Origin: Desulfuromonadaceae bacterium
GTDB lineage: Bacteria; Desulfobacterota; Desulfuromonadia; Geobacterales; Pseudopelobacteraceae
Direction: 5' to 3'
DNA length: 43,589 bases
Assembly (NCBI GenBank): GCA_028688955.1
Contig: JAQTXD010000023.1
Span: 1-43,589 of the forward strand
Shown piece by piece: positions 26,720 to 42,389 of this stretch. The notes beneath the pieces were generated by a model. It saw only the letters and a list, made by a program, of their open reading frames with translations, ran no database searches and was not told the DNA's origin. The position numbers and the translations under genes were made by a program. Position 1 is the stretch's first letter, and each line of letters begins with the position of its first letter.

Positions 26720-27247
26720 TTACTTGGAGGCTATTGCCAAGGATGCAGGAGCAAAAGAGAAAGCATCTGTTGTGACCTTTTTTGCCAGTGCAAAATTATC
26801 GTTTACATAGCTCTGGAATGCGTCAAATCCGAAATTGAAGGTGTCGTTCCAAAATGTAACAACTGCTTTTGCATCATTGGGGAGCAGTTTTGTGGCAGCT
26901 TCAATGAATGTCTGTGCCTCATTCTTAAGGACTGCTGCCTGGCCAAATGATTCGTTGGAAAATATTTCCAAGGCTTCCAGGCTTTTTGCCGACGCATCTG
27001 TGGAGGTTACATCGAGCTGCAGACCTGCTTCAAGGAATTTCTTGAAATTAACCAGGGTTGTCTGGCTTTCCTTGACGCATGTGGTGACGACGTTCTTACC
27101 CTCTTCAGGAACAGCAGGTGACGCTGCCAGAATCTGGTCTACTGCTACGGCGGTCTGAGTTGAAATTGTGTTGAGGGCTTCGAAGCCGGCGTCAAGAAGG
27201 TTTTTGTTGAAGTCGGTAGTCTCTTTGTTGAAGTCTGAAGTTGCCAT
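26720..27247 (-). CDS. Phasin 1 (PHA granule-associated protein)
   Basis: 175 residues, no cysteine-rich or catalytic motifs, mostly amphipathic helix with many Ala, Asn, Thr and Phe. It shares with the product at 40405-40935 the words FEALNTIS near the start, VPEEGK in the middle, and a WN-FQ-(V)N-NFALA(K/R)KV segment near the end. Phasins coat PHA granules. The gene lies beside phaE/phaC genes and has an AGGAG ribosome site on the minus strand. Identification as phasin rests on this context plus the phasin-like helical pattern. Confidence 0.85.
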   Translation of the reverse strand: MATSDFNKETTDFNKNLLDAGFEALNTISTQTAVAVDQILAASPAVPEEGKNVVTTCVKESQTTLVNFKKFLEAGLQLDVTSTDASAKSLEALEIFSNESFGQAAVLKNEAQTFIEAATKLLPNDAKAVVTFWNDTFNFGFDAFQSYVNDNFALAKKVTTDAFSFAPASLAIASK

Positions 27248-28215: not shown

Positions 28216-28287
28216 TCCTGCAATATAGTATTCAGGGTGGATGTGGATTGGTGATGAAATTACGTTTTTATGAGAGGAGATAACTGT

Positions 28288-29646
28288 ATGCAGGATTTTT
28301 TTAAGCAGCAACCTGGTTGGCTGAAAGCATGGAAAGAAAATCAGGAGGCATTGACGAAACAGTTTGCGGGATTGGGTGAGGATTGGCTCAAAAATATGTC
28401 TGGCGGAAAAGGGTTAAATGCGGACTTTTTTGAAGGCTGGTTCAAGTCACAGGGCAATTTGGAAGAACAGTTCAAAGAGTTCAGTGCGCGCATGAACGAA
28501 ATGATGCGTAATGTCTGGGGAAACAAAATCCCGGCGGATATGATGAAGTACATGAATACAAGCTTTATTGAGGCGTTTTATAAAAATTGGCTTGCCGGTA
28601 TTGAGCTGCCCGGTGGCATTAAGAATCCTCTGGGTGTTGATGGCGGTTGGCAGCAGGCAACCAACTTCCTCCGCTCCTTTATGGAGAAGGAAAATCCATT
28701 CTTCTCAGCTTTCAACAGCGGCAAATTAAATGACCAGATAAGCAACATTATTGGGATGTTAAAGGGTGCTTTTGGGAGTGAAGGTTCCGCATTTGCCGAT
28801 TTTATTGGGAACTATCAGTCCCAGTTCGGTAAGTTATTTGATTCTTCATCGGCTCAGGGCGCGGAGAAGCTTTCAGAGGCCTTTGACGTGTGGGTGAAGG
28901 AAGTCACTAAGCAGCTTTCAGCGCCGAAATTAGGACTCAGTAGAGAAGTTGCGCAGGATATATCCCTGGCGTTGGTGTCGACTCAGGATTACTTCAAGGC
29001 CTATTCGAAAATGACGCAGTTTGTTGAAAAAACCTCGAGAAAGGGCAACATCCGCTTCCAGACCAAGCTGAGCGAGGCTGCACTGAAGAATAAACCGGTA
29101 ACCAAGTTTACTGACTTCTGCAACCTGTGGGCATCTGAAAATGAAGCAGTATTTCTTGAAGTAATGGGCACTGAAGAGTTTGCCAAGATTCAGGGAGAAT
29201 TTACCGATGCCGGTCATCGTCTGAAGATTCAGAGTGGCAAACTCATGGAAAAGGCACTTGAGCCTACTCCGATCGCTCTCAAGCGCGACCTCGATCTTGC
29301 TATTGGGGAAATACAACAGTTGAAACGTGACATGAGAGCATTTCGCCGCGAGATACAGGCCGTTCAGAAAGAAGCCGAAGTTGCCCGAGGGGCGAAAGCG
29401 GCCGCAGAGGAAATTGCAAAAAATGCCAAAATCGCCGTGAAAGCAGCGGAGACTGCAGCACAGGAAGAACTGAAAAAAGCGAAAGAAGCCGTTAAAGCTG
29501 CTGAGGTTGCTGCGCAAAGTGAAGCCAAAAAGGCAAAGGCCGCCGAGGCTGCCGTGGCAGCACTCACAAAACAGGTAAATGCCGACAGTAAAGCTGCTAA
29601 GGCTGCACCGAAAGCTACCACTAAAACCAAGTCCAAGATTGATTAG
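28288..29646 (+). CDS. phaE: PhaE-type subunit of class III PHA synthase, with long Ala/Lys tail
   Basis: 452 residues from ATG 28288 (AGGAGA at 28275-28280). It lies 11 bases before phaC, as PhaE does in class III systems. PhaE has no catalytic site and activates PhaC. Helical segments rich in Trp/Phe (FFEGWFKSQGNLEEQF) and LSREVAQDISLALVSTQDYF resemble the family. From about residue 347 to the end the sequence turns to Lys/Ala/Glu repeats (KAAETAAQEELKKAKEA style) and a basic end, much like the histone-type tail of PhaF phasins, so the protein is longer than the usual PhaE of 350-370 residues. Confidence 0.85.
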   Translation: MQDFFKQQPGWLKAWKENQEALTKQFAGLGEDWLKNMSGGKGLNADFFEGWFKSQGNLEEQFKEFSARMNEMMRNVWGNKIPADMMKYMNTSFIEAFYKNWLAGIELPGGIKNPLGVDGGWQQATNFLRSFMEKENPFFSAFNSGKLNDQISNIIGMLKGAFGSEGSAFADFIGNYQSQFGKLFDSSSAQGAEKLSEAFDVWVKEVTKQLSAPKLGLSREVAQDISLALVSTQDYFKAYSKMTQFVEKTSRKGNIRFQTKLSEAALKNKPVTKFTDFCNLWASENEAVFLEVMGTEEFAKIQGEFTDAGHRLKIQSGKLMEKALEPTPIALKRDLDLAIGEIQQLKRDMRAFRREIQAVQKEAEVARGAKAAAEEIAKNAKIAVKAAETAAQEELKKAKEAVKAAEVAAQSEAKKAKAAEAAVAALTKQVNADSKAAKAAPKATTKTKSKID

Positions 29647-29657
29647 GGGAGGACACG

Positions 29658-30773
29658 ATGCAAACGTTTCCACATAAAATAAAAGAATCTCTGAACGACT
29701 TAACTTCGTTCACTGAAAGTCTTAAAAAGGGAGTTGAAAACCTTGTCTCCCTTGATGAAAGAGCATCCGGTTTCCCGGACGATCATGACAGCTGCGGGAC
29801 CTGCAGAACCTGCCGTAGATGCTGCTCGCTGAAAGAGGTGGTGTTTCAGGACGGCAAGCGCACGCTCTATCGCTACAAACAGCGTGCTAAAAAAGTCAAC
29901 TCAGTACCGACACTAATGGTATACGCCATGGTAAACCGCTATACCATGCTCGACCTGCAGCCGAATCGTTCCATGATTCGTAACCTGCTCGATGAAGGTC
30001 AGGATCTGTACATAATCGATTGGGGCTATACCGATAGAATGGATCGATTCATGACGATGGAGGACTATATCGATGGCTTCATCAATGACTGTGTAGACCA
30101 TATTCGCGAAAAGCATAAACTTGACTCTATCAATCTGATCGGGATTTGTCAGGGCGGAACGTTTTCAACAATTTATGCCGCACTCTACCCGGAAAAAATC
30201 AAAAACTTCATTCCGATCGTCACCCCGGTCGATTTCGATACGAAAGCCAGTTTGCTGAACGTATGGTCTACCGAGTTTGATGCGGATCTGTTGATAGATG
30301 CATACGGAAATGTGCCCGGCGACATGATGAATCAGGCGTATACGATGCTGCAGCCGTTTACCCTGAGCATAAGCAAGTACATCAACATGGTGAACATCAT
30401 GGAGGATGCAGATAAACTAGCCGACTTCCTGCGTATGGAAACCTGGATTTTTGACAGCCCTGATCAGCCGGGCGAAACGTTGCGACAGTTTCTCAAAGAT
30501 TTATTCCAGGCGAACAAGCTTGTAAAGGGTCAGTTTGTCCTGGGCAAGCGCACAGTTGATCTGAAAAACATAACAATGCCGATCCTCAATATTTTTGCTG
30601 AATTTGACACACTGGTACCACCTGTTTCTTCAAAGGCGCTACGTGATCACGTCAGCAGCAAGGATATACAGGACTTGTCGTTCCCGGTCGGTCATATAGG
30701 TATATTTGTGTCCGGGAAAACACAGAAAACGTTGGCTCCCAAAATATCCGAATGGCTCAACGCACGAGCGTGA
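29658..30773 (+). CDS. phaC: Class III PHA synthase catalytic subunit with Cys-rich insert
   Basis: PhaC polymerises 3-hydroxyacyl-CoA to polyester. The 371-residue protein has the nucleophile Cys164 in GICQGG, Asp317 in AEFDTLVPP and His346 in PVGHIG. All three are exactly 15 residues later than the C149/D302/H331 of the Allochromatium vinosum enzyme (numbers from memory). An insert of about that length would explain this: near residues 41-56 lies DDHDSCGTCRTCRRCC, with five cysteines in 11 residues, which is unusual. Length and the separate phaE make this class III. GGGGAGG at 29646-29652 precedes the ATG. Confidence 0.95.
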   Translation: MQTFPHKIKESLNDLTSFTESLKKGVENLVSLDERASGFPDDHDSCGTCRTCRRCCSLKEVVFQDGKRTLYRYKQRAKKVNSVPTLMVYAMVNRYTMLDLQPNRSMIRNLLDEGQDLYIIDWGYTDRMDRFMTMEDYIDGFINDCVDHIREKHKLDSINLIGICQGGTFSTIYAALYPEKIKNFIPIVTPVDFDTKASLLNVWSTEFDADLLIDAYGNVPGDMMNQAYTMLQPFTLSISKYINMVNIMEDADKLADFLRMETWIFDSPDQPGETLRQFLKDLFQANKLVKGQFVLGKRTVDLKNITMPILNIFAEFDTLVPPVSSKALRDHVSSKDIQDLSFPVGHIGIFVSGKTQKTLAPKISEWLNARA

Positions 30774-30830: not shown

Positions 30831-31592
30831 ATGAACATCAAGGATCATGTTTTTGTTGTTACGGGCGCTGCTCGTGGATTGGGCCTCGCCTTTGCCAAGG
30901 ATCTGTCCGATTTAGGAGGAAGATTGGCACTGGTTGATATGAACAGTGAAGGGTTGGAGAAGGCTGCAGCTGTACTGCGTGAGCAGGGAGCTGAAGTGCG
31001 GTGCTATACCGCAAATATAGCTTCGGAAGAAGAGGTCGTTGCCCTCTTCAATGATATCCAGAGTGATTTCGGCCAGATTGACGGTCTTATCAATAATGCC
31101 GGTATTACCCGTGATGCCATGCTGGTTAAGCGCACTAAAGATGATGATATTGTTACGATGTCATTAAAAGACTGGCAACAGGTAGTTGACGTCAATCTTA
31201 CCGGTACCTTTCTGTGTGGTCGCGAAGCCGCAGCACATATGGTTAAGGGAAATCGCAAGGGCGTGATAGTCAATATCAGCAGTATCTGCAGAAACGGAAA
31301 TATTGGCCAGAGCAACTACTCAGCTACTAAAAACGGTGTTGCCGCGCTTACCTCCACATGGGGTAAGGAGCTGTGCCGGTATGGCATACGGGTTGGCGCC
31401 ATCGCCCCCGGATACGTCAACACTGAAATGGTGTCGCAGATCCGCCCTGATGTATTAGGGAAAATCACGGCTCTGGTTCCGCTGGGACGTTTGGCTGAGC
31501 CGTCTGAAATTGCCCACACCGCTCGCTACATCATTGAAAACGACTACTTCTCAAGTCGAACCATAAGTGTTGATGGTGGTTTCCGCCTGTAA
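30831..31592 (+). CDS. Short-chain dehydrogenase, acetoacetyl-CoA reductase or 3-oxoacyl reductase-like
   Basis: 253 residues with the Rossmann motif TGAARGLG, the NNAG motif, catalytic Ser in VNISSI, and Tyr/Lys in NYSATK. These define a classical SDR of the FabG/PhaB type. It follows phaC by 57 bases with GAGGAG just upstream, so it probably supplies (R)-3-hydroxyacyl-CoA to the synthase. A second reductase at 38742 could do the same; which is the main PhaB is open. Confidence 0.88.
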   Translation: MNIKDHVFVVTGAARGLGLAFAKDLSDLGGRLALVDMNSEGLEKAAAVLREQGAEVRCYTANIASEEEVVALFNDIQSDFGQIDGLINNAGITRDAMLVKRTKDDDIVTMSLKDWQQVVDVNLTGTFLCGREAAAHMVKGNRKGVIVNISSICRNGNIGQSNYSATKNGVAALTSTWGKELCRYGIRVGAIAPGYVNTEMVSQIRPDVLGKITALVPLGRLAEPSEIAHTARYIIENDYFSSRTISVDGGFRL

Positions 31593-31625: not shown

Positions 31626-31660
31626 AAGCCCCCTTCTATTTCGATAGAAGGGGGCTTTTT
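31626..31660 (+). terminator. Terminator after phaE-phaC-reductase operon
   Basis: Perfect 14-bp stem AAGCCCCCTTCTAT/ATAGAAGGGGGCTT (31626-31639, 31644-31657) with TTCG loop and a T run. The giant carboxylase gene therefore needs its own promoter. Confidence 0.95.
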
Positions 31661-31906: not shown

Positions 31907-34900
31907 ATGACAACTGCACCAACAAACGATCGCTTCTTTGAGCTAGCCGAACAACTTGCATCTGACTTTTCGTTACTGAAGGGTGTCAGCCGCTCGAATC
32001 GTGCCCGTCAGAAGAGAGAAGTGGAAACGGCCCTTACAGGACTTGTTGACCACAGTACTGTTGAAAAGACTACAAAGTGGCTTAAAAGCCTGGATGTCGA
32101 TGCCTACATCAGGGAGACGGTTGACCCATCGGAGCAAAAAGGGCGAATAGGTTTCAAGGCTGTCGTGAAGCAGCTGAAACTTAAAATTGTGGAAGAAATT
32201 TCTTTCGGACCATTATACTGCGTTGAGGCCGAGTTTGATTTTGACGGCTATCAGCGCCGTCTCTGTCTGCTGGGGCAGGATAGAAATACCAATAATGGTG
32301 TGTGGGGACCGGAACACCACCGCAAGGCCATTGAAATAATCCGAAAATATGAACGCTATTCGGTGCCGGTGATCACATTTATCGACACCCCGGGTGCCGA
32401 TGCGGGAGAGGTGGCCAACGCCAACAACCAGGCCCATTCAATTTCCCACTTTATCGCTGAAATGGCGAACCTGAATGTTCCGTCAGTCAGTATAATTCTT
32501 GGAAACGGTTATTCCGGCGGAGCTATCCCTCTGGCCACAGCCAACATCCTGCTCTCTGTCCGCGACGGTGTACTCAATACGATTCAGCCCAAGGGGCTGG
32601 CTGCCATCGCCAGAAGCCTGGATCTTAGCTGGCAGGAGTGTGCGAAATACGTCGGCGTCAGTGCCTATGAACTCTATCAGCAGGATTTCGTAGACGGCAT
32701 CATAGACTACGTGCCCGGTGAAAAGGGACAGCAGCTGGAGAATTTACGGAATGTCATTGTTTCGGCAGTAAACGCCATCGAGAGCCGGGCACTCACATTT
32801 GTCAGAGAGACCGACGGTGTGCTCGACCACTATCGGGAGAATCTGCTCCGCTATATCAACCCTTCGGACAAACTCAAGGCGCTTAACAGCCTGTCGGCGC
32901 TCTCCCGTACCCATTTTGCTACCGAGTATTGCAATGTCTTCGGCATCACATACCGCTACATGCGTTACCTCAGTTTGCGGGGTCGTATAAAGTCGACCTC
33001 ATCGGCAAATTACAGTCGCTCCACCAATGTGGTCACGCCCAAGGGTGACCTGATGATGCGAGTTCAGGAAGAGCAGGCGAACGCCTTTGCCAGTTGGCTC
33101 GATAAACCACTGCACATCCGCTATGACGACAATTTGTCAGCCAGTTACAAAACCTATCTTGATCGTAAGCAGCAGGTATGTGATGAGCGTGGCCGTCTGT
33201 CCAAGCTTATTCTTGGTGACCCCGGCGTCAATTTTGAGAAAGCCCAGCAAACTACCTACCTTACCTACGGGTTCCACCTTTACAATCTCTGGAAGTCATG
33301 GAGCCAGAACAATTTTATGGCACTGATCAAGTATCTCGGTTCAGCGACAGCCTTTACTGCTCCGGCTAACGCTGCTGAAATGACGGTACTTGATGTAATT
33401 ACCCTGTCAGATTTTCGTGAGGGGATGATCCGTGAGTGCCAGAACTGTATTATCTTCGACCTGGTGTATGATCAGATCATTTCCGACCTGCGCCCGATTG
33501 CCGCTGAAGCCAAGGATACCAATACGTTCTCGAAGAAGTCGTTCCGGGCACTCCTTGAGTCGTCAATCCAGGCTGCAACAATCAAGTTAAAGAAATTGTT
33601 TGGCGAGGGGGGCGTTGATGAAACAAGCCTCGAAGACAATTTTTACAGCTGGTTAAATACACTCCTGCAGCATCCGCAGATGAAAAACTTTATCCGTCCG
33701 GTGCAGGAATGGAAAAAGATTCAGTATCCGCGTATTTCAGAGCCGCTGTTTGCCATTGTCACGTTCCTGTTTGAAAAACTTCTACTGGAGTATGTCGAAT
33801 CCGAGCGTGAAGGGCGCGAGTATGACGGCCGCATAAAGTTGCGCGACTTGGGTATGAAAGATTTCTGGAACCGCTTGACCACTGCGTATAATGATCTGTT
33901 GATCCAGGATGTGCTGCTGCAGGATAAACGGGCGAAAAACTGCCGTTTCGAGACAATTGTTGCCGAGTTTTTTACCGATTTCCGTGAACTTGACAGCGAT
34001 CTGATGACTGCTGACCCGGCGAATTTCCCCGGTTTCCGTCAATCAATCGAGAAAGCGCTGGATGCCGGCATTAAGCCATGCGGAGTCATCACCGGTCTTG
34101 CCAAACTCAAAAAAGACGGGGATCATCCGGCGACCAGGGTCGGAGTGGTCATATCCAATCTGGATTTCCAGGCGGGGGCATTTGACATGCCGTCGGCGGA
34201 GAAATTCTGTAACCTCCTGCTTCAGTGTGCCCGCCGCAAACTTCCGGTTGTTGCCTTCATCTCTTCGGGTGGTATGAATACCAAAGAGGGCGCCGGTTCG
34301 CTATTCTCCATGTCGATAGTCAACGACCGCATCACCCGCTTTATCCGTGACAACGAACTCCCTGTCATCTGTTTCGGTTTCGGCGATTGCACCGGCGGCG
34401 CCCAGGCATCCTTTGTCACTCATCCGCTGGCGCAGACATATTATTTCTCCGGCTGCGGCATGCCATTCGCCGGGCAGATAGTTGTACCCTCCTATCTCCC
34501 GTCGACAGTAACACTGTCCAACTATCTCAGCGTTGTTCCCGGGGCCATGCAGGGACTGGTCAAGCACCCCTTCAATCAGGACCTTGACAAACAGCTTCGA
34601 GCTATCGATCCCGCCATACCTACGCCGGTTGAAAGTGTGATGGATGTTTGTCACCGTGTGTTTAAAGGACTCTATCGCCCAGATATCGATATTTCCGCCA
34701 CTGAAAGTGCTTCACTGGTGGATGAACGCTCACTGCTGAAACCGGTTAAACGCACCCTGATTCACGCCCGCGGCTGTACGGCAGCCAAGCTGATTCTGGT
34801 GGCACAGCGTGAAGGTATTGAAGTTGTGCTGGTACAATCCGATGCCGATATGGATTCGGCTGTTGCCGCCCAACTCACCGATAAGGATACGCTTATCTGC

Positions 34901-36478
34901 ATCGGCGGCAACACCCCGGACGAGTCTTATCTCAATGCCAAGTCGGTGCTGCGTATTGCCGAGCAGCAGAAGGTCGATTCACTTCATCCCGGTATCGGCT
35001 TCCTGTCGGAAAATGCCGACTTCGCCCTTATGTGCCGGAATCGTGGGATTAACTTTGTCGGTCCCTGGTTCTCCAGTATGGAGCTTATGGGCAACAAGAC
35101 CAACGCGATTGACACGGCCATGAAGGCTGGCGTCCCCGTAGTTCCAGGTAGCCACGGCATCATTGACAGTGTGGAGACCGGTATGGAGGTTGCCAGGGCT
35201 ATCGGCTATCCAGTTCTGCTCAAAGCTGTTCACGGCGGCGGCGGCAAAGGGATCAAGGTTGTGGAAGTTCAGGAGGATTTCCGTGAAACGTTCTTCACCA
35301 TATCCTCGGAAGCCCGGGCTGCCTTTGGCTCAGGCGACATCTATCTTGAAAAATACGTTACCAATCTGCGTCATATCGAAGTCCAGATCCTTCGCGATGC
35401 CCATGGCAATTGCCGCATTCTCGGTTTGCGTGATTGCTCCGTTCAGCGTAACAACCAGAAAATTTTCGAAGAATCCGGATCTACCATGCTGCCGAAAAAT
35501 CTTGAGCAGGATGTACTCCGCTATGCAGAGCTTATCGCCAATCAGGTAGACTACGTCGGCGCAGGAACCGTTGAGTTTATCTTCAATCTTGACGAAATGG
35601 CCATCTATTTCATGGAGATGAATACACGACTGCAGGTCGAGCATCCGGTAACGGAACAGGTCACCGGTGTTGATATTGTTGCCAATCAGTTCAGGATCGC
35701 CGGAGGCGGGTCTATTGCTGATATCGTCTACAATCCGAGCGGGTACGCTATTGAAGCCCGAATTACTGCTGAACGCACCGTTGTGGAGGGAGGAGCAATC
35801 TCCTTCATTCCAACTCCAGGCAATGTCACCGCCTTTAGTATTCCTGCGGCTGACCATATCAAAGTCATAAAGATGATTGATGCCGGAAAGCCGATTACCC
35901 CCTACTATGACTCACTGATGGCTCAGGTTATTGTCACCGGAAAAGATCGAAATGATGCAGCCGATAAACTGCTCACAGCCCTGGAGGGCACAGTAATACA
36001 GGGCGTTCATACCAATATTCCTCTGCTCAAGCGGGTCCTGAGAGATGAAACATTCCGCACCGGGATCTATAACACCCAGTATCTTCCCGGTTTCCTTGAG
36101 CGCATAAATGTTGAGGAGATGATCTCCGAGGGAGAAGAAGCGTCAGGTTCCGCACAGGTCGTGCTTGACCGATCCGCTATTGAAATTGAAGGAAGCCGCG
36201 AGCTCAAAGTCCTCTCTCCCTCAACCGGAGTGTTCTACGATTCTTCATCTCCCACTGAGCCGCCATTTGCACCGATCGGAAAAACGGTGAAACTGAGAGA
36301 TACTATTGGCTTGCTGGAAGCTATGAAGCTGTTTGCACCGGTATCTCTTAATACCTGTAACCCTGGTGGCGTTTTTTATGATGCCGACAAGACGTATGAA
36401 ATAGTTCGTATCATTCCGACGCCTGGACAGGCGGTCAACAAGGGAGACCTGCTGTTTGTTATCAAGGAGGTGGTTTGA
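31907..36478 (+). CDS. Single-chain acyl-CoA carboxylase (CT-alpha, CT-beta, BC, BCCP)
   Basis: 1523 residues carry a complete biotin-dependent carboxylase. Residues about 80-300 are AccA-like (FIDTPGA near 158, GNGYSGGA near 204). About 300-730 is a long spacer without a recognised motif. About 730-930 is AccD-like (AFISSGGMNTKEGAGSLF near 785). About 945-1410 is biotin carboxylase (HARGCTAAK in place of the usual NRGEIA, HPGIGFLSEN, HGGGGKGI near 1108, MEMNTRLQVEHPVTE near 1238). The end is a BCCP with EAMKL, biotinyl Lys1474. The alpha-before-beta order is reversed from PccB-type fused subunits. It would carboxylate acetyl-, propionyl- or longer acyl-CoA; the substrate is not visible. KAS III follows after 96 bases. 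Confidence 0.9.
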   Translation: MTTAPTNDRFFELAEQLASDFSLLKGVSRSNRARQKREVETALTGLVDHSTVEKTTKWLKSLDVDAYIRETVDPSEQKGRIGFKAVVKQLKLKIVEEISFGPLYCVEAEFDFDGYQRRLCLLGQDRNTNNGVWGPEHHRKAIEIIRKYERYSVPVITFIDTPGADAGEVANANNQAHSISHFIAEMANLNVPSVSIILGNGYSGGAIPLATANILLSVRDGVLNTIQPKGLAAIARSLDLSWQECAKYVGVSAYELYQQDFVDGIIDYVPGEKGQQLENLRNVIVSAVNAIESRALTFVRETDGVLDHYRENLLRYINPSDKLKALNSLSALSRTHFATEYCNVFGITYRYMRYLSLRGRIKSTSSANYSRSTNVVTPKGDLMMRVQEEQANAFASWLDKPLHIRYDDNLSASYKTYLDRKQQVCDERGRLSKLILGDPGVNFEKAQQTTYLTYGFHLYNLWKSWSQNNFMALIKYLGSATAFTAPANAAEMTVLDVITLSDFREGMIRECQNCIIFDLVYDQIISDLRPIAAEAKDTNTFSKKSFRALLESSIQAATIKLKKLFGEGGVDETSLEDNFYSWLNTLLQHPQMKNFIRPVQEWKKIQYPRISEPLFAIVTFLFEKLLLEYVESEREGREYDGRIKLRDLGMKDFWNRLTTAYNDLLIQDVLLQDKRAKNCRFETIVAEFFTDFRELDSDLMTADPANFPGFRQSIEKALDAGIKPCGVITGLAKLKKDGDHPATRVGVVISNLDFQAGAFDMPSAEKFCNLLLQCARRKLPVVAFISSGGMNTKEGAGSLFSMSIVNDRITRFIRDNELPVICFGFGDCTGGAQASFVTHPLAQTYYFSGCGMPFAGQIVVPSYLPSTVTLSNYLSVVPGAMQGLVKHPFNQDLDKQLRAIDPAIPTPVESVMDVCHRVFKGLYRPDIDISATESASLVDERSLLKPVKRTLIHARGCTAAKLILVAQREGIEVVLVQSDADMDSAVAAQLTDKDTLICIGGNTPDESYLNAKSVLRIAEQQKVDSLHPGIGFLSENADFALMCRNRGINFVGPWFSSMELMGNKTNAIDTAMKAGVPVVPGSHGIIDSVETGMEVARAIGYPVLLKAVHGGGGKGIKVVEVQEDFRETFFTISSEARAAFGSGDIYLEKYVTNLRHIEVQILRDAHGNCRILGLRDCSVQRNNQKIFEESGSTMLPKNLEQDVLRYAELIANQVDYVGAGTVEFIFNLDEMAIYFMEMNTRLQVEHPVTEQVTGVDIVANQFRIAGGGSIADIVYNPSGYAIEARITAERTVVEGGAISFIPTPGNVTAFSIPAADHIKVIKMIDAGKPITPYYDSLMAQVIVTGKDRNDAADKLLTALEGTVIQGVHTNIPLLKRVLRDETFRTGIYNTQYLPGFLERINVEEMISEGEEASGSAQVVLDRSAIEIEGSRELKVLSPSTGVFYDSSSPTEPPFAPIGKTVKLRDTIGLLEAMKLFAPVSLNTCNPGGVFYDADKTYEIVRIIPTPGQAVNKGDLLFVIKEVV

Positions 36479-36574: not shown

Positions 36575-38500
36575 ATGAAACCGTTCAGACTTAACAAACA
36601 CGGAAAACTTGTGCTTCCCTGCAGTATCTTCATCGATCTCGATTTCTCAATCATTTCCAGCCTTGACCACTTGCAGGCCATCGTTCGCCGGGACTTTGAA
36701 GGGAAGGCGCCGACAGGAACCGAAATTGCCAAACGGGCTGCCGCCGGTTCATATACAACTCGCTATGATCTGTTGCGTGACATCAGTCTTAATCTTTTCT
36801 GGGCAAACCGCTTCGCTTTGACTATGTATGACAAACGACCGACGCGATGGAGGGATGTCCCACGCAATCGCGAAGATGTGTTCGTGGCTTTATTGGAACC
36901 ATGGACGGATGCCAAGGCAAAGTCGGAAAGTGTACGCGATGCCTACAAACAACTGGGGGCCAAATGGAATCAAACTGTTGAGGACGAGTTGTTCGAGTCG
37001 CTCTTCGATATTTTCTCGAACAAGCTCTATCGCGCACAGGAACTCCCCCCGCTCAAGGCCACGATTGCCGAGGCGCTGGCTACCCCTGACGCAATGACGA
37101 CCATCCTCCGTAAATATGATCCTGATTTCAAGCGCTACAGCGATGTTGAAATTCTTGATGCTTCAGAAGAACAACCTGAACTGGAGGCGCTCCGGCGCTG
37201 GGCGATGGTGCTTCACAACCAACACCCCTGGGATAGAAGCCGGTCCAAGCTGAAAACCTTTGACGAGATGGAAGATGATGATGTCGTCGTACTGTTTTAT
37301 CCAAAATCTCGCGAAGTAGTCGACTTTATACATCGCGTGAAAAGTGGAACCATGCCAACCCCGCAATCGCCGAAGCCGGATCCTGAGTGCAAGCCGGTGA
37401 CTCCGCTCCTGCCGTTGGTACTTGCAACAGATACTCCGGTCCGGCCGAAGATTGAGTCGCTTGCGATCCGCAAGGGTGAGGTCATCTGTAATAACGATGA
37501 TGTCGTCCGGAACTCTCCGCCTTCGTGGTCACCGATGAGTGCAGATGAAATTACGGAGAAAACCGGAATCGAGCAACGCTGCTACACTGTCGAACCGCTG
37601 GAAAACATCGCTCTTGAGGCAGCTCGGGCAGCAATGAAGCATGCCGGTAGAGCACCGGGAGAAATCGGTGCGGTGCTGTTCTGCACCTGCACTTCGAGCA
37701 GACTGATTCCCTCGACTTCTACCTGGCTCTCAGGACAATTGGGCATCTCGCAGACTCATTACTCGGCCGACATTATCGCAGCATGTGCCGGATTCCCTTA
37801 TGGAATGGGAGCTGCGGTCCGTCTGATGCGTGAGGTTAATCGTCCGATTCTTCTGGTATGTGCAGAGAAGTTCTCGGATAAGATCGGCAATGCGCGACCG
37901 TCGCGAATGATCTTTGGCGACGGGGCTGCAGCGTTGGTCATTGCGCCGACCGATGGTGAGCGTGATATCGAGGTTGTTCAGACGTATGCCAGCGGACCAT
38001 TCAGCCAGGTTAACTCCATTATCTGGCCGAACTTTGACTACGATAATGACATCACCGTGTATGGACCCGAAGTAAAGAAATTGGTCAAGAGGTATCTTGA
38101 CCAGATGATGAATGAACTTTCCGAACTCAAAAGCGTCAAAGGTGGCAAAGCGCTTATTGACGATATCGACGTCATCGTACCTCATCAGGCAAACAAGACT
38201 ATGATCATTGAAATTGCTGTGCCCCAGGGGATCAAGGCGGAGGATATCTATTTTAACATCGCCAAAGTCGGCAACGCATCATCGGCAAGTATTCCTACCG
38301 CAATGGCGGATGCAGTCTATGAAGGGGCGATCACCAAGCGGTCTCTGATCTTTGCCCCTGGATTTGGTGCCGGAGCTGTCGGCGGATATGTTGTAATGTG
38401 GCTTGACCCGGCAATAGTTGCACCGGAGAATACTACTGACGACCTTACCATGGTACCATCGCCGAAGGCGGCACCTTCGTCACTTGAAGGCGTCATTTAG
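36575..38500 (+). CDS. KAS III-type condensing enzyme with extra N-terminal domain
   Basis: 641 residues. The C-terminal half (about 295-625) is a thiolase-fold ketoacyl synthase III with the Cys-His-Asn triad: C404 in AACAGF, H537 in VPHQAN, N567 in VGNASSAS. KAS III enzymes condense an acyl-CoA with malonyl-ACP or malonyl-CoA. The first about 290 residues match no family I know: they are soluble and mixed, with a Trp-containing helical part and a Pro-rich linker (residues about 265-295, TPQSPKPDP). The gene directly follows the carboxylase gene, consistent with use of its product. AAAGGAG at 36562-36568 precedes the ATG. Confidence 0.88.
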   Translation: MKPFRLNKHGKLVLPCSIFIDLDFSIISSLDHLQAIVRRDFEGKAPTGTEIAKRAAAGSYTTRYDLLRDISLNLFWANRFALTMYDKRPTRWRDVPRNREDVFVALLEPWTDAKAKSESVRDAYKQLGAKWNQTVEDELFESLFDIFSNKLYRAQELPPLKATIAEALATPDAMTTILRKYDPDFKRYSDVEILDASEEQPELEALRRWAMVLHNQHPWDRSRSKLKTFDEMEDDDVVVLFYPKSREVVDFIHRVKSGTMPTPQSPKPDPECKPVTPLLPLVLATDTPVRPKIESLAIRKGEVICNNDDVVRNSPPSWSPMSADEITEKTGIEQRCYTVEPLENIALEAARAAMKHAGRAPGEIGAVLFCTCTSSRLIPSTSTWLSGQLGISQTHYSADIIAACAGFPYGMGAAVRLMREVNRPILLVCAEKFSDKIGNARPSRMIFGDGAAALVIAPTDGERDIEVVQTYASGPFSQVNSIIWPNFDYDNDITVYGPEVKKLVKRYLDQMMNELSELKSVKGGKALIDDIDVIVPHQANKTMIIEIAVPQGIKAEDIYFNIAKVGNASSASIPTAMADAVYEGAITKRSLIFAPGFGAGAVGGYVVMWLDPAIVAPENTTDDLTMVPSPKAAPSSLEGVI

Positions 38501-38741: not shown

Positions 38742-39578
38742 ATGAGTGAAATAGACCTTACGCAAAACGATAACACTTCCACACGAGTCGGAAACAAACT
38801 AAAGGGACGGGTTGCATTTGTAACAGGTGGTACCCGCGGCATCGGAGCCTCTATCTGCCGCAGTCTTGCCAGTCAGGGAGCTACCGTTGCGGCAGGCTTC
38901 ACCGGTAACGAAAAGGCCGCGACAGAGTTCCGTGATTCCTTCACGGAGACGTACGCCACGTCGGTCAGTATTCATAAAGGCAATCTGGGCGTTCCGGAAG
39001 ATTGCCGCCGCACCATTGACGAAGTCATTTCGAATCACGGACGACTTGACATCCTTGTCAATAATGCTGGTATTACCTGTGACAAAACAGTACTGAAGAT
39101 GATGGACGATGATTGGTTCAACGTCCTCAATGTTAATCTGTCTGGCGTGTTTTTTCTCTGTCAGGCTGCCCTGCGACACATGGCTGAGCGCGGCAGTGGA
39201 CGTATTGTGAACGTATCAAGCGTTATCGGTGAGATGGGGAATATCGGTCAGGCAAACTACGCTGCATCGAAGTCGGGGTTGTTCGGGTTGACAAAGACGC
39301 TCGCACGGGAAGCTGCTTCACTGCTTGCCCGGTCGGGGAAACTCACAGAGCCCAATGGGATCGGCATTACAGTTAACACCGTCACCCCCGGATTCATTGC
39401 AACAGAAATGCTAGGTCATATCCCCGAAAAAGTGATGGAGAAAATACTGGCTCAAATCCCTCTCGGCAGACTCGGCAAGCCGGAAGAGATTGCGCGTGTC
39501 GTGCACTTCCTTGCGGCCGATACGTCCTCCTACATTACCGGTCAGGTATGGGGTGTGAATGGCGGATTGGATATGTAA
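38742..39578 (+). CDS. phaB: Acetoacetyl-CoA reductase or 3-oxoacyl-ACP reductase
   Basis: 278 residues, classical SDR: VTGGTRGIG, NNAGIT, Ser in VNVSSV, Tyr/Lys in NYAASK, ending VNGGLDM, very like the LNGGLHM end of Cupriavidus PhaB. An N-terminal extension of about 20 polar residues precedes the Rossmann fold. It reduces 3-oxoacyl thioesters with NAD(P)H. It stands 241 bases after the KAS III gene. The spacer shows no terminator, so it may share its transcript. The gene symbol is likely but not certain. Confidence 0.8.
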   Translation: MSEIDLTQNDNTSTRVGNKLKGRVAFVTGGTRGIGASICRSLASQGATVAAGFTGNEKAATEFRDSFTETYATSVSIHKGNLGVPEDCRRTIDEVISNHGRLDILVNNAGITCDKTVLKMMDDDWFNVLNVNLSGVFFLCQAALRHMAERGSGRIVNVSSVIGEMGNIGQANYAASKSGLFGLTKTLAREAASLLARSGKLTEPNGIGITVNTVTPGFIATEMLGHIPEKVMEKILAQIPLGRLGKPEEIARVVHFLAADTSSYITGQVWGVNGGLDM

Positions 39579-40404: not shown

Positions 40405-40935
40405 TTACTTAGTTGCAGCTTTCTTGTCAGCTTTTGGAGCTTCTGCTGCTAAATCGCCCATCACTTTGCGGGCAAGTGCGAAGTTCTGAGTAACGAAATT
40501 CTGGAAGCTCTGGTAGTTGCTGTTCAGTGTGCCGTTCCAGAAATCAACAACCGGTTTTGCTTCTTTAGGGAGCTGCTCGGTAGCTTTTTTGAGCAATTCA
40601 CTGGTTTCTTTCTGTAAAGAATCTACCTGGCTGAAGGCGCTGTTGTAGAGCGTTTCGATAGCTTCAAGGCCTTTGGCAGATGCATTTGGGCTTGTCCAAT
40701 CGATTTCCAGGCCGCTCTCAACGAATTTTCTCTGGCTTGACAAGCCCTTCTCATTTTCCTTGAAGAACATATTTACAGCTTTCTTTCCCTCTTCTGGAAC
40801 ATTCGGGGTTGCATCAAGAATCTGGTTTGCTGCTTTAGCTGCCTGGTTTGAAATGGTATTGAGGGCCTCAAAGCTCTCTTTTACTGCGTTCTTGTTGAAG
40901 TCTAAAATTTCCTGGGCTACGTTTTGTTTTGACAT
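40405..40935 (-). CDS. Phasin 2
   Basis: 176 residues from ATG 40935, chosen by its AAGGAG ribosome site and by alignment of MSKQNVAQEILDFNKN with the phasin 1 start; an upstream frame extension covers the promoter and is not real. Shared with phasin 1: FEALNTIS, VPEEGKK, ASAKGLEAIE-type block and NFALARKV. The last 15 residues are Ala/Lys-rich. It probably coats PHA granules like phasin 1. Different tails and regulation may give separate roles. Confidence 0.88.
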   Translation of the reverse strand: MSKQNVAQEILDFNKNAVKESFEALNTISNQAAKAANQILDATPNVPEEGKKAVNMFFKENEKGLSSQRKFVESGLEIDWTSPNASAKGLEAIETLYNSAFSQVDSLQKETSELLKKATEQLPKEAKPVVDFWNGTLNSNYQSFQNFVTQNFALARKVMGDLAAEAPKADKKAATK

Positions 40936-40998
40936 GATCGATCTCCTTTTTAAGTTTTTCCCGTCTTCTGGTGATTTCCAGTACGTTTGATAAACAAC

Positions 40999-41027
40999 AT
41001 TTAAACAAAAAATAAATATTGTGTCAA
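40999..41027 (-). promoter_or_regulatory. Promoter of phasin 2 with TAAACAAAA box
   Basis: Minus strand: TTGACA (41027-41022), 17-base spacer, TTAAAT (41004-40999). The box TAAACAAAA (plus strand, 41002-41010) overlaps the -10 end of the spacer; a second partial copy, TAAACAACA, lies at 40991-40999. Confidence 0.6.
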
Positions 41028-41151
41028 GAAAAAAATAATGCACGGAAAAAATTGTTTATATCTTGTTTTTTTTGTATATTCACGCTAGCATGTACGAAAG
41101 TCAAATAAATTCGAAATACAACTAATATGTATAAACGTGTTTTGAAATTGC

Positions 41152-41213: not shown

Positions 41214-42389
41214 ATGAACGAAGTTTATGTAGTTGAGGCGTTACGCACCCCATTTGGTTCTTTTGGCGGCTGTTTGTCAGATGTTGAAGCACCTCAGTTG
41301 GCGGCAACCGTCATGAAAGGTCTTTTTGAAAAGACCGGTCTACCTCCAGAGGCGGTTTCTGAGGTTATTATTGGCCAGGTACTTTCTAGCGGTTGTGGGC
41401 AGGCACCGGCTCGCCAGGCCATGCGTGCTGCCGGTATACCCGACACTACGCACGCCATGACAATTAATAAGGTCTGTGGCAGTGGTTTGAAGTCAATGAT
41501 GCTTGCCAATGACAGTATCCGTCTTGGTGAGTCTGAGGTGGTGATAGCTGGAGGAATGGAGAATATGAGTTTGTCTCCATATATGCTTACAAAAGGCCGT
41601 AACGGCTATCGCATGGGCCACGGTTCACTGCTTGATCTACTGATTTATGATGGCCTGCAGGACCCCTGGTCCGGGCGGCATGTGGGTGAAATCGGTGAGG
41701 AGAGTGCTGCTCGCGCGGGACTTACCAGAGCCGAACAGGATGATTTTGCAATCAGATCCTATGAACTCTCCCAGGCTGCCGTCAAAGGTGGCATCTTTGT
41801 GGACGAGATAGTTGCTGTTGTTAAAAAAGGCAAAAAAGGTGAAGAAATTGTTGCTACGGATGAAGAACCGTTCAAAGGTGACTCCAGCAAATTTTTTCAA
41901 CTGAAATCGGTGTTTAAGAAGGACGGCACTATAACAGCAGGAAATGCTTCAACCATTAGCGACGGAGCATCTCTGGCGGTATTGACTAACGAAGCCGGAC
42001 TGAAAAAATACGGACTCAAGGCAAAAGCACGCATTGTTGCTACATCAACAGCAAGCCGCCATCCCGACTACTTCCCGGAAGCTCCGGTGACTGCAATTGA
42101 GAATGTCTGCGCCAAAGCAGGGCTTACGATTGCCGATATAGACTTATTTGAAATTAACGAGGCATTTGCTTCGGTCCCATTGCTGGCTATCAAGGGATTA
42201 AATATCCCCCTCGACAAGGTTAACGTCAATGGTGGTGCATGCTCCATCGGTCACCCGCTTGGTGCCAGCGGAGCGCGTATTGCTGCGACGATTATTCGTG
42301 AATTGCACAGGCGAAATCTGCGCTACGGTCTAGCCACTCTCTGTATCGGTGGGGGTGAAGCTGTTGCCGTTATTTTTGAGAGAGTTTAA
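41214..42389 (+). CDS. Thiolase (acetyl-CoA acetyltransferase)
   Basis: 391 residues. Catalytic residues are in family positions: Cys88 (NKVCGSG), His347 (SIGHPLGASG) and Cys377 (LCIGGGEA; usually GGGQG). The enzyme joins two acetyl-CoA to acetoacetyl-CoA or works in the breakdown direction. The MerR-type operator it shares with icmF, and the crotonase downstream, favour an acyl-CoA degradation role; the same enzyme could also feed PHA. GAGGAG at 41201-41206 precedes the ATG. Confidence 0.95.
   Translation: MNEVYVVEALRTPFGSFGGCLSDVEAPQLAATVMKGLFEKTGLPPEAVSEVIIGQVLSSGCGQAPARQAMRAAGIPDTTHAMTINKVCGSGLKSMMLANDSIRLGESEVVIAGGMENMSLSPYMLTKGRNGYRMGHGSLLDLLIYDGLQDPWSGRHVGEIGEESAARAGLTRAEQDDFAIRSYELSQAAVKGGIFVDEIVAVVKKGKKGEEIVATDEEPFKGDSSKFFQLKSVFKKDGTITAGNASTISDGASLAVLTNEAGLKKYGLKAKARIVATSTASRHPDYFPEAPVTAIENVCAKAGLTIADIDLFEINEAFASVPLLAIKGLNIPLDKVNVNGGACSIGHPLGASGARIAATIIRELHRRNLRYGLATLCIGGGEAVAVIFERV

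Follow-up and report, generated by a model that had tools for sequence, protein, structure and literature searches.

The closest described relative of the enzyme reported here is AccS of Shewanella oneidensis, which the published account presents as a multiple-domain ACCase with a domain order unlike that of eukaryotes, and places in Shewanella and a few gammaproteobacterial genera (PMC11602165). The same account puts accS in divergent orientation to the LysR gene accR, and describes an accR mutant as having lower accS expression together with slow growth (PMC11602165). This study was the only description of the family found in the literature, and a paper on the structure 9kkm may exist in subscription journals; the 'AccADCB' of a Berkiella genome paper merely lists genes. 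On the metabolic side, the nearest system is the engineered cyanobacterial route through the acetoacetyl-CoA synthase NphT7, for which the source gives the thiolase reaction as unfavourable (Keq about 1e-5) and the route through malonyl-CoA as irreversible at the expense of one ATP (PMC4693188).

We analysed a stretch of 43,589 nucleotides (the window; contig JAQTXD010000023.1 of assembly GCA_028688955.1) from a Desulfuromonadaceae bacterium. Judged from its sequence, the gene at 31907..36478 encodes an AccS-type (AccADCB) single-chain acetyl-CoA carboxylase (ACC). It adds a member from a new lineage to an architecture that is rare but already known. Whereas Shewanella accS lies beside accR, the window AccS lies beside PHA and KASIII genes in a genome that also has canonical ACC, and no LysR was among the families identified in the scanned neighbours.

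Domain architecture and family membership

The AccS gene and its parts are as follows.

31907..36478, + strand: AccS/AccADCB-type single-chain acetyl-CoA carboxylase, ATG start, 1523 aa; matches PDB 9kkm_A with 1631 bits over residues 1-1521
32285..32752, + strand: AccA-like carboxyltransferase (CT) half, residues 127-282 (Pfam ACCA, 7e-32)
32777..33976, + strand: spacer, about residues 291-690, modelled by AlphaFold2 as almost entirely helical
33977..34726, + strand: AccD-like CT half, about residues 691-940 (NCBIfam accD, 1e-10)
34745..36085, + strand: biotin carboxylase (BC) domain, residues 947-1393 (Pfam; alignment with the genome's own AccC)
36143..36475, + strand: biotinyl domain, residues 1413-1523 (NCBIfam BCCP, 4e-11; Biotin_lipoyl, 2.2e-5)
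36326-36328, + strand: codon of the biotin-carrying Lys1474, in EAMK (by motif position)

Pfam matches above cut-off to ACCA (residues 127-282), Biotin_carb_N (947-1056), CPSase_L_D2 (1064-1269) and Biotin_carb_C (1283-1393), together with NCBIfam matches to accD (691-838, 1e-10) and BCCP (1413-1520, 4e-11), set out the order AccA-like, helical spacer, AccD-like, BC, BCCP in one chain. Every domain thus matches the family of its corresponding canonical subunit (AccA, AccD, AccC or AccB). The accD and BCCP scores, like those against the AccA and AccC equivalogs, lie well below the NCBIfam cut-offs, and the domains are therefore divergent from the free subunits. The stretch 121-210 aligns with positions 298-387, in the C half of the 493-position Pfam Carboxyl_trans model, and the AccD match comes about 480 residues later, so the two CT halves are swapped relative to PccB. 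The AccD-like half does not precede the AccA-like half, as it does in PccB-type and eukaryotic CT.

Single-chain long-chain acyl-CoA carboxylases and eukaryotic ACC likewise combine BC, BCCP and CT in one chain, in the order BC-BT-BCCP-CT. Unlike them, AccS has CT first, with its halves in opposite order, and the window protein has no BT or ACC_central match in Pfam. Compared with canonical ACC, AccS is four subunits fused in one chain, with a helical spacer and no AccD zinc ribbon. The Pfam scan of the spacer (residues 301-688) returned nothing beyond chance (best E 0.054), and the AlphaFold2 model of residues 1-945 (mean pLDDT 80.7) makes it almost entirely helical. The original prediction, read from the letters of ORF 31907-36478, is borne out on these points: profiles recognise both the AccA-like and the AccD-like part, the domain order and the reversed CT halves are as described, and the long spacer has no Pfam match beyond chance and is, in the predicted structure that had been proposed as a check, helical.

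Relatives were compared in a set of 61 AccS sequences. The AccA-like half carries a GYSGGA loop at residues 201-206 (YSGGA in 61/61) and the AccD-like half a CTGGAQ loop at 828-833 (60/61). A single CxxC, at 511-514, occurs in residues 1-946, against two in the genome's own canonical AccD, and the AccD-like half is without the four-cysteine zinc ribbon of that subunit. Aligned with the genome's own AccC, the BC domain retains the glycine-rich ATP loop and MNTRxQVEHPVTE, the latter as MNTRLQVEHPVTE at residues 1238-1250, and QVEHP is present in 59 of the 61 sequences. The catalytic roles of these BC and CT motifs are those generally known for such enzymes. Residues 954-959 read ARGCTA where the AccC type has NRGEIA, and 49 residues lie C-terminal to the biotin lysine of EAMK (1471-1474; 61/61), where the genome's own AccB has 36.

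The sole end-to-end PDB sequence match was to 9kkm/9w4a, 'Acetyl-CoA carboxylase multifunctional enzyme AccADCB' (phmmer, 1631 bits). The title of 9kkm, released 2025-11-19, is that of a cryo-EM structure of the acetyl-CoA carboxyltransferase holoenzyme dimer of Shewanella oneidensis, mutant E1238A. A Foldseek search with the model of residues 1-945 aligned 920 columns of 9kkm (TMq 0.82, 47% identity). Among the 50 Foldseek matches listed, only 9kkm joins a good fit to an alignment long enough to span the spacer; the remaining rows, CT chains belonging to different ACC, PCC and related enzymes, cover too few columns or fit poorly. Homology to the Shewanella enzyme thus runs from end to end, spacer included, and the two proteins share domain order, length class (1517 vs 1523 aa), ARGCTA and the longer BCCP end.

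These comparisons change how several features first singled out in the window gene are to be read. ARGCTA is there, and so is the tail behind Lys1474, longer by 13 residues; the former is shared by 58 of the 61 sequences and by Shewanella AccADCB, and the latter ranges from 48 to 63 residues among relatives. Across the aligned sequences, ARGCTA, the extended BCCP end and the spacer are family traits and not peculiarities of the window gene. A novel architecture, which the original prediction implied, is ruled out by the full-length match to the solved structures 9kkm/9w4a, and by the S. oneidensis member studied in PMC11602165. A survey of other genomes had been suggested as a further check, with the claim to be dropped if many distant phyla shared the order as a well-known family: several distant phyla do share it, but the family is hardly well known.

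Distribution of AccS and coexistence with canonical ACC

When one genome per species was scanned, 121 AccS relatives came to light, of which the best 80, representing 77 loci, were analysed. These come from Desulfuromonadales, Planctomycetota, Verrucomicrobia, Lentisphaeria, Kiritimatiellae, many gammaproteobacteria and two Rhodobacteraceae, with taxa taken from the titles of records that are mostly MAGs, so that single records may be misbinned. At 60 of the 77 loci the chain lies in one frame (1507-1722 aa, window included), and full-length copies outside the gammaproteobacteria occur in Desulfuromonadales, Planctomycetota, Verrucomicrobiota/Lentisphaerota and a Rhodobacteraceae MAG. The family is thereby widened from Shewanella and the few gammaproteobacterial genera named in PMC11602165 to several phyla. 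In a phylum sample, the AccS spacer was found in 1 of 395 genomes, namely the window's own.

The AccS tree comprised 61 sequences (the window and 60 of the 77 loci; 17 were excluded as cut by contig ends or broken in frame), and the structure alignment 40. In this quick LG+G4, midpoint-rooted tree, the copies of the window's class join the Planctomycetota sequences L062 and L063 with SH-aLRT 99-100, which suggests that AccS was acquired by transfer in this class, most likely from a Planctomycetota-like lineage into that of the Desulfuromonadales.

Canonical AccA, the only subunit searched, was above the NCBIfam cut-off in 7 of 23 AccS genomes (23 of 24 loci, L108 being left out): a Rhodobacteraceae MAG, Saccharospirillum and five genomes of the window's class, four of them with Desulfuromonadales or Desulfuromonadaceae in the title and one, L067, titled Deltaproteobacteria but assigned to this class. 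For the remaining 16 the top AccA match was AccS itself and the rest were much weaker. All five window-class genomes in this survey carry AccA, and the window genome has canonical AccA, AccD, AccB and AccC as well as two FabH above cut-off. Serving as sole ACC, a trait common among AccS members without strictly defining them, is therefore not what the window genome presents; because the four canonical genes coexist with AccS, its role is less likely to be that of the sole-ACC members, and the identity of the enzyme is untouched. AccS apparently has two life styles, one as the seemingly sole ACC and the other as an extra ACC tied to storage-polymer genes.

Two minor features of the survey deserve mention. 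At four loci AccS falls into two frames or ORFs (L047:14738-19322, L045:4812-9337, L046:3430-7288 and L126:1-4377, the last broken close to the spacer/AccD boundary), through either a real split or assembly error. A plasmid search gave a single match, an AccS spacer with 38% identity on the conjugative plasmid pOXA436 (L170, 9001-10266), with genes of the OXA-48 family and of the LysR type close by; we take it to be captured Shewanella chromosomal passenger DNA.

PHA gene neighbourhood and its variants

The setting of AccS among PHA and KASIII genes, which the original prediction did not touch, is the most informative part of the locus.

26720..27247, - strand: another phasin-like protein, with 48% identity to that at 40405..41043
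28270..29646, + strand: PhaE, class III PHA synthase subunit (Pfam PHA_synth_III_E, 3.6e-24, above cut-off)
29658..30773, + strand: PhaC, class III PHA synthase catalytic subunit (TIGR01836, 454 bits, cut-off 365)
30831..31592, + strand: SDR1, ketoacyl reductase (NF006072, 366 bits, cut-off 298)
31626..31657, + strand: terminator-like hairpin of 14 pairs with a T run, between SDR1 and AccS
36575..38500, + strand: KASIII fusion, an N-terminal region of about 275 aa and a FabH-like domain (residues 323-608)
38742..39578, + strand: FabG2, a FabG/acetoacetyl-CoA-reductase-like SDR (NF009466, 250.5 bits, above the cut-off of 222)
40405..41043, - strand: phasin-like small protein; similar proteins lie near the PHA genes of related loci
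41214..42389, + strand: acetyl-CoA acetyltransferase, the thiolase of the conventional PHA route (TIGR01930, 413 bits, cut-off 240.55)

The genes thus run PhaE, PhaC, SDR1, hairpin, AccS, KASIII fusion, FabG2, two opposite-strand genes and thiolase. PhaE scores below the cut-off of NCBIfam TIGR01834 (74.8 bits against 154.95), as does FabG2 for TIGR01830 (278.8 against 297.75) and TIGR01829 (276.8 against 302.1). The protein at 40405..41043, presumably a phasin from its resemblance and place, matched no family in Pfam or NCBIfam. The hairpin has the longest stem among the listed sites of a search that yielded 21 sites against 13.3 expected in shuffles; since it separates SDR1 from AccS, AccS probably starts its own transcript. 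Misassembly or contamination is unlikely to explain the cluster, given a ribosomal-protein run on the contig (noted by eye) and the recurrence of the gene order in other genomes; the contamination value of the assembly is 5.91.

In the KASIII fusion, Cys404, His537 and Asn567, which we take to be the catalytic Cys-His-Asn as in FabH, are invariant in 11 of 11 aligned copies, and the window domain aligns with FabH 2ebd. The fusion has the KASIII domain with Cys-His-Asn expected of an NphT7-like acetoacetyl-CoA synthase, and no chain named NphT7 was among its listed PDB matches. Its N-terminal region (36575-37399) is strongly conserved among the 11 copies and gave no family above cut-off (best Pfam Aip3p_Bud6_N, E 0.0027). 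An AlphaFold2 model of it built with 11 close relatives was poor (pLDDT 40.9).

Among 277 genomes of the class, the AccS spacer was found in 12, the KASIII N-terminal region in 12 and class III PhaC above cut-off in 16 (25 match at E 0.001). All 12 spacer-positive genomes have class III PhaC (hypergeometric 5e-18), and by genus all 8 AccS genera fall within the 11 PhaC genera of 82 (5e-9), neither value being corrected for kinship or for the spread of an island; joint movement of the genes on a single island could produce this pattern. The count of 12 excludes G128, a 70% complete genome with fragments of AccS and KASIII and no class III PhaC match, the inclusion of which makes the overlap 12/13. 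AccS, or a piece of it, shares a contig with class III PhaC in 8 of the 12 genomes and lies on a different contig in four. The KASIII fusion accompanies AccS in 9 of the 12.

In related genomes AccS mostly adjoins the KASIII fusion, and the pair lies on either side of PhaEC depending on the genome. Two loci (L042, L044) have PhaE-PhaC-SDR1-AccS-KASIII followed by an SCP2-type thiolase, and FabG2 is not present there as a gene of its own; in L050/L067 and L047 KASIII is upstream of AccS. At L040:12256-13572 and L041:5377-6564 (complement), an SCP2-type thiolase occupies the place of the KASIII fusion near AccS.

The carboxylase itself also varies. At five loci (L146, L147, L148, L149 and L151) a long carboxylase chain, homologous in all five, comes after the same KASIII fusion; the one copy scanned (L146:11112-15296) has biotinyl, ACC_central and Carboxyl_trans matches above cut-off, a weak BT match and no BC domain in the family scan. 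Its best PDB relatives are eukaryotic ACC chains. In L151, which reads PhaE-PhaC-KASIII-carboxylase-FabG, this eukaryote-like chain occupies the AccS slot between KASIII and FabG2. Long matches to it occur in 5 of the 277 class genomes, all five with KASIII and class III PhaC (264 genomes had some match, those listed beyond the long ones being short and confined to the biotinyl region). Because three of the five (G141, G182, G241) also carry AccS, the swap is one of locus and not a clean replacement by genome. Two carboxylase architectures beside one KASIII argue that KASIII wants the product of a carboxylase.

A proposed malonyl-CoA route to PHA and its alternatives

Our data are consistent with a model, which we consider the probable one, where AccS is an ACC additional to the canonical enzyme and supplies malonyl-CoA for PHA monomers by way of the neighbouring condensing enzyme. 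The type of enzyme is known, and the PHA role is read from domains, fold family, coexistence with canonical ACC genes, co-occurrence and gene order. The BC domain would use ATP and bicarbonate to carboxylate the biotin on Lys1474, and the biotinyl domain would ferry the carboxyl group to the active site of the AccA-like and AccD-like halves, turning acetyl-CoA into malonyl-CoA; the helical spacer of this enzyme, which has no AccD zinc ribbon, probably serves to organise the dimer. Malonyl-CoA would pass to the condensing enzyme (the KASIII fusion or, in two genomes, the SCP2-type thiolase), whose formation of acetoacetyl-CoA would be irreversible and would consume one ATP, and after reduction by an SDR the 3-hydroxyacyl-CoA would be polymerised by PhaEC. 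Enzyme activity, KASIII substrate, direction of transfer and flux into PHA are inferred. The presumed reaction of the KASIII fusion, malonyl-CoA plus acetyl-CoA to acetoacetyl-CoA, is that of the NphT7 route, which is engineered, whereas the window holds a proposed natural gene cluster; the fusion could, for its part, require malonyl-ACP and not malonyl-CoA. As a thiolase (41214-42389) belongs to the same cluster, the malonyl route is not needed, and it would be an addition and not the only way to PHA.

Several observations count against this model. Two genomes (G021, G202) have class III PhaC and neither carboxylase, and three (G024, G032, G068) have AccS and no KASIII fusion match; in G024 and G032, AccS and PhaEC are accompanied by an SCP2-type thiolase in place of the fusion, and we know of no use of malonyl-CoA by such an enzyme. 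AccS could alternatively be a surplus ACC that serves ordinary fatty acid synthesis and travels with PHA genes only through a shared transferred island. Housekeeping is probably its usual role, given the 16 of 23 AccS genomes without canonical AccA above cut-off, and the shared contigs in 8 of 12 class genomes and the hairpin that sets AccS apart from PhaEC-SDR1 fit such a reading, which we nonetheless regard as unlikely: the window genome has its own AccA, AccB, AccC and AccD, the AccS-KASIII pair changes sides of PhaEC and lies on a separate contig from class III PhaC in four genomes, and elsewhere a different carboxylase stands behind the same KASIII.

It is more doubtful still that AccS, KASIII and FabG make some other malonyl-derived acyl chain, such as a special fatty acid or short polyketide, with PHA not required. 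The FabH-like KASIII domain, the N-terminal region without an assigned role and the SCP2-type thiolase of several clusters would suit such a product, but class III PhaC accompanies the spacer in every one of the 12 genomes. A divergent duplicate carboxyltransferase alongside the genome's canonical enzyme also recalls an inhibitor-insensitive copy guarding against natural ACC inhibitors; this seems very improbable, as a Pfam scan of seven window neighbours gave no sign of antibiotic synthesis or export and the PHA association would be left unexplained.

Beyond the supply of malonyl-CoA by AccS, we tentatively entertain, at somewhat less than even chances, a broader proposal: that some Desulfuromonadales have put together a natural, ATP-driven route to PHA, with a dedicated single-chain carboxylase feeding a KASIII acetoacetyl-CoA synthase, AccS or the BC-less eukaryote-like chain having been recruited to the same slot. 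No natural malonyl-CoA/KASIII/PHA cluster was found described in the literature, judged by titles and abstract openings, and AccS as a spare copy among PHA genes looks new for this bacterial group. If the malonyl-CoA route to PHA holds true, nature already uses the ATP-driven shortcut engineered in cyanobacteria, and the KASIII fusion becomes a new enzyme candidate for bioplastic production. Lastly, at two related loci a short ORF lies ahead of the KASIII fusion (L067:7308-7871 and L152:1149-1904); the former matched no family in Pfam or NCBIfam, and by our reading both presumably resemble the start of a FabY-type ketosynthase.
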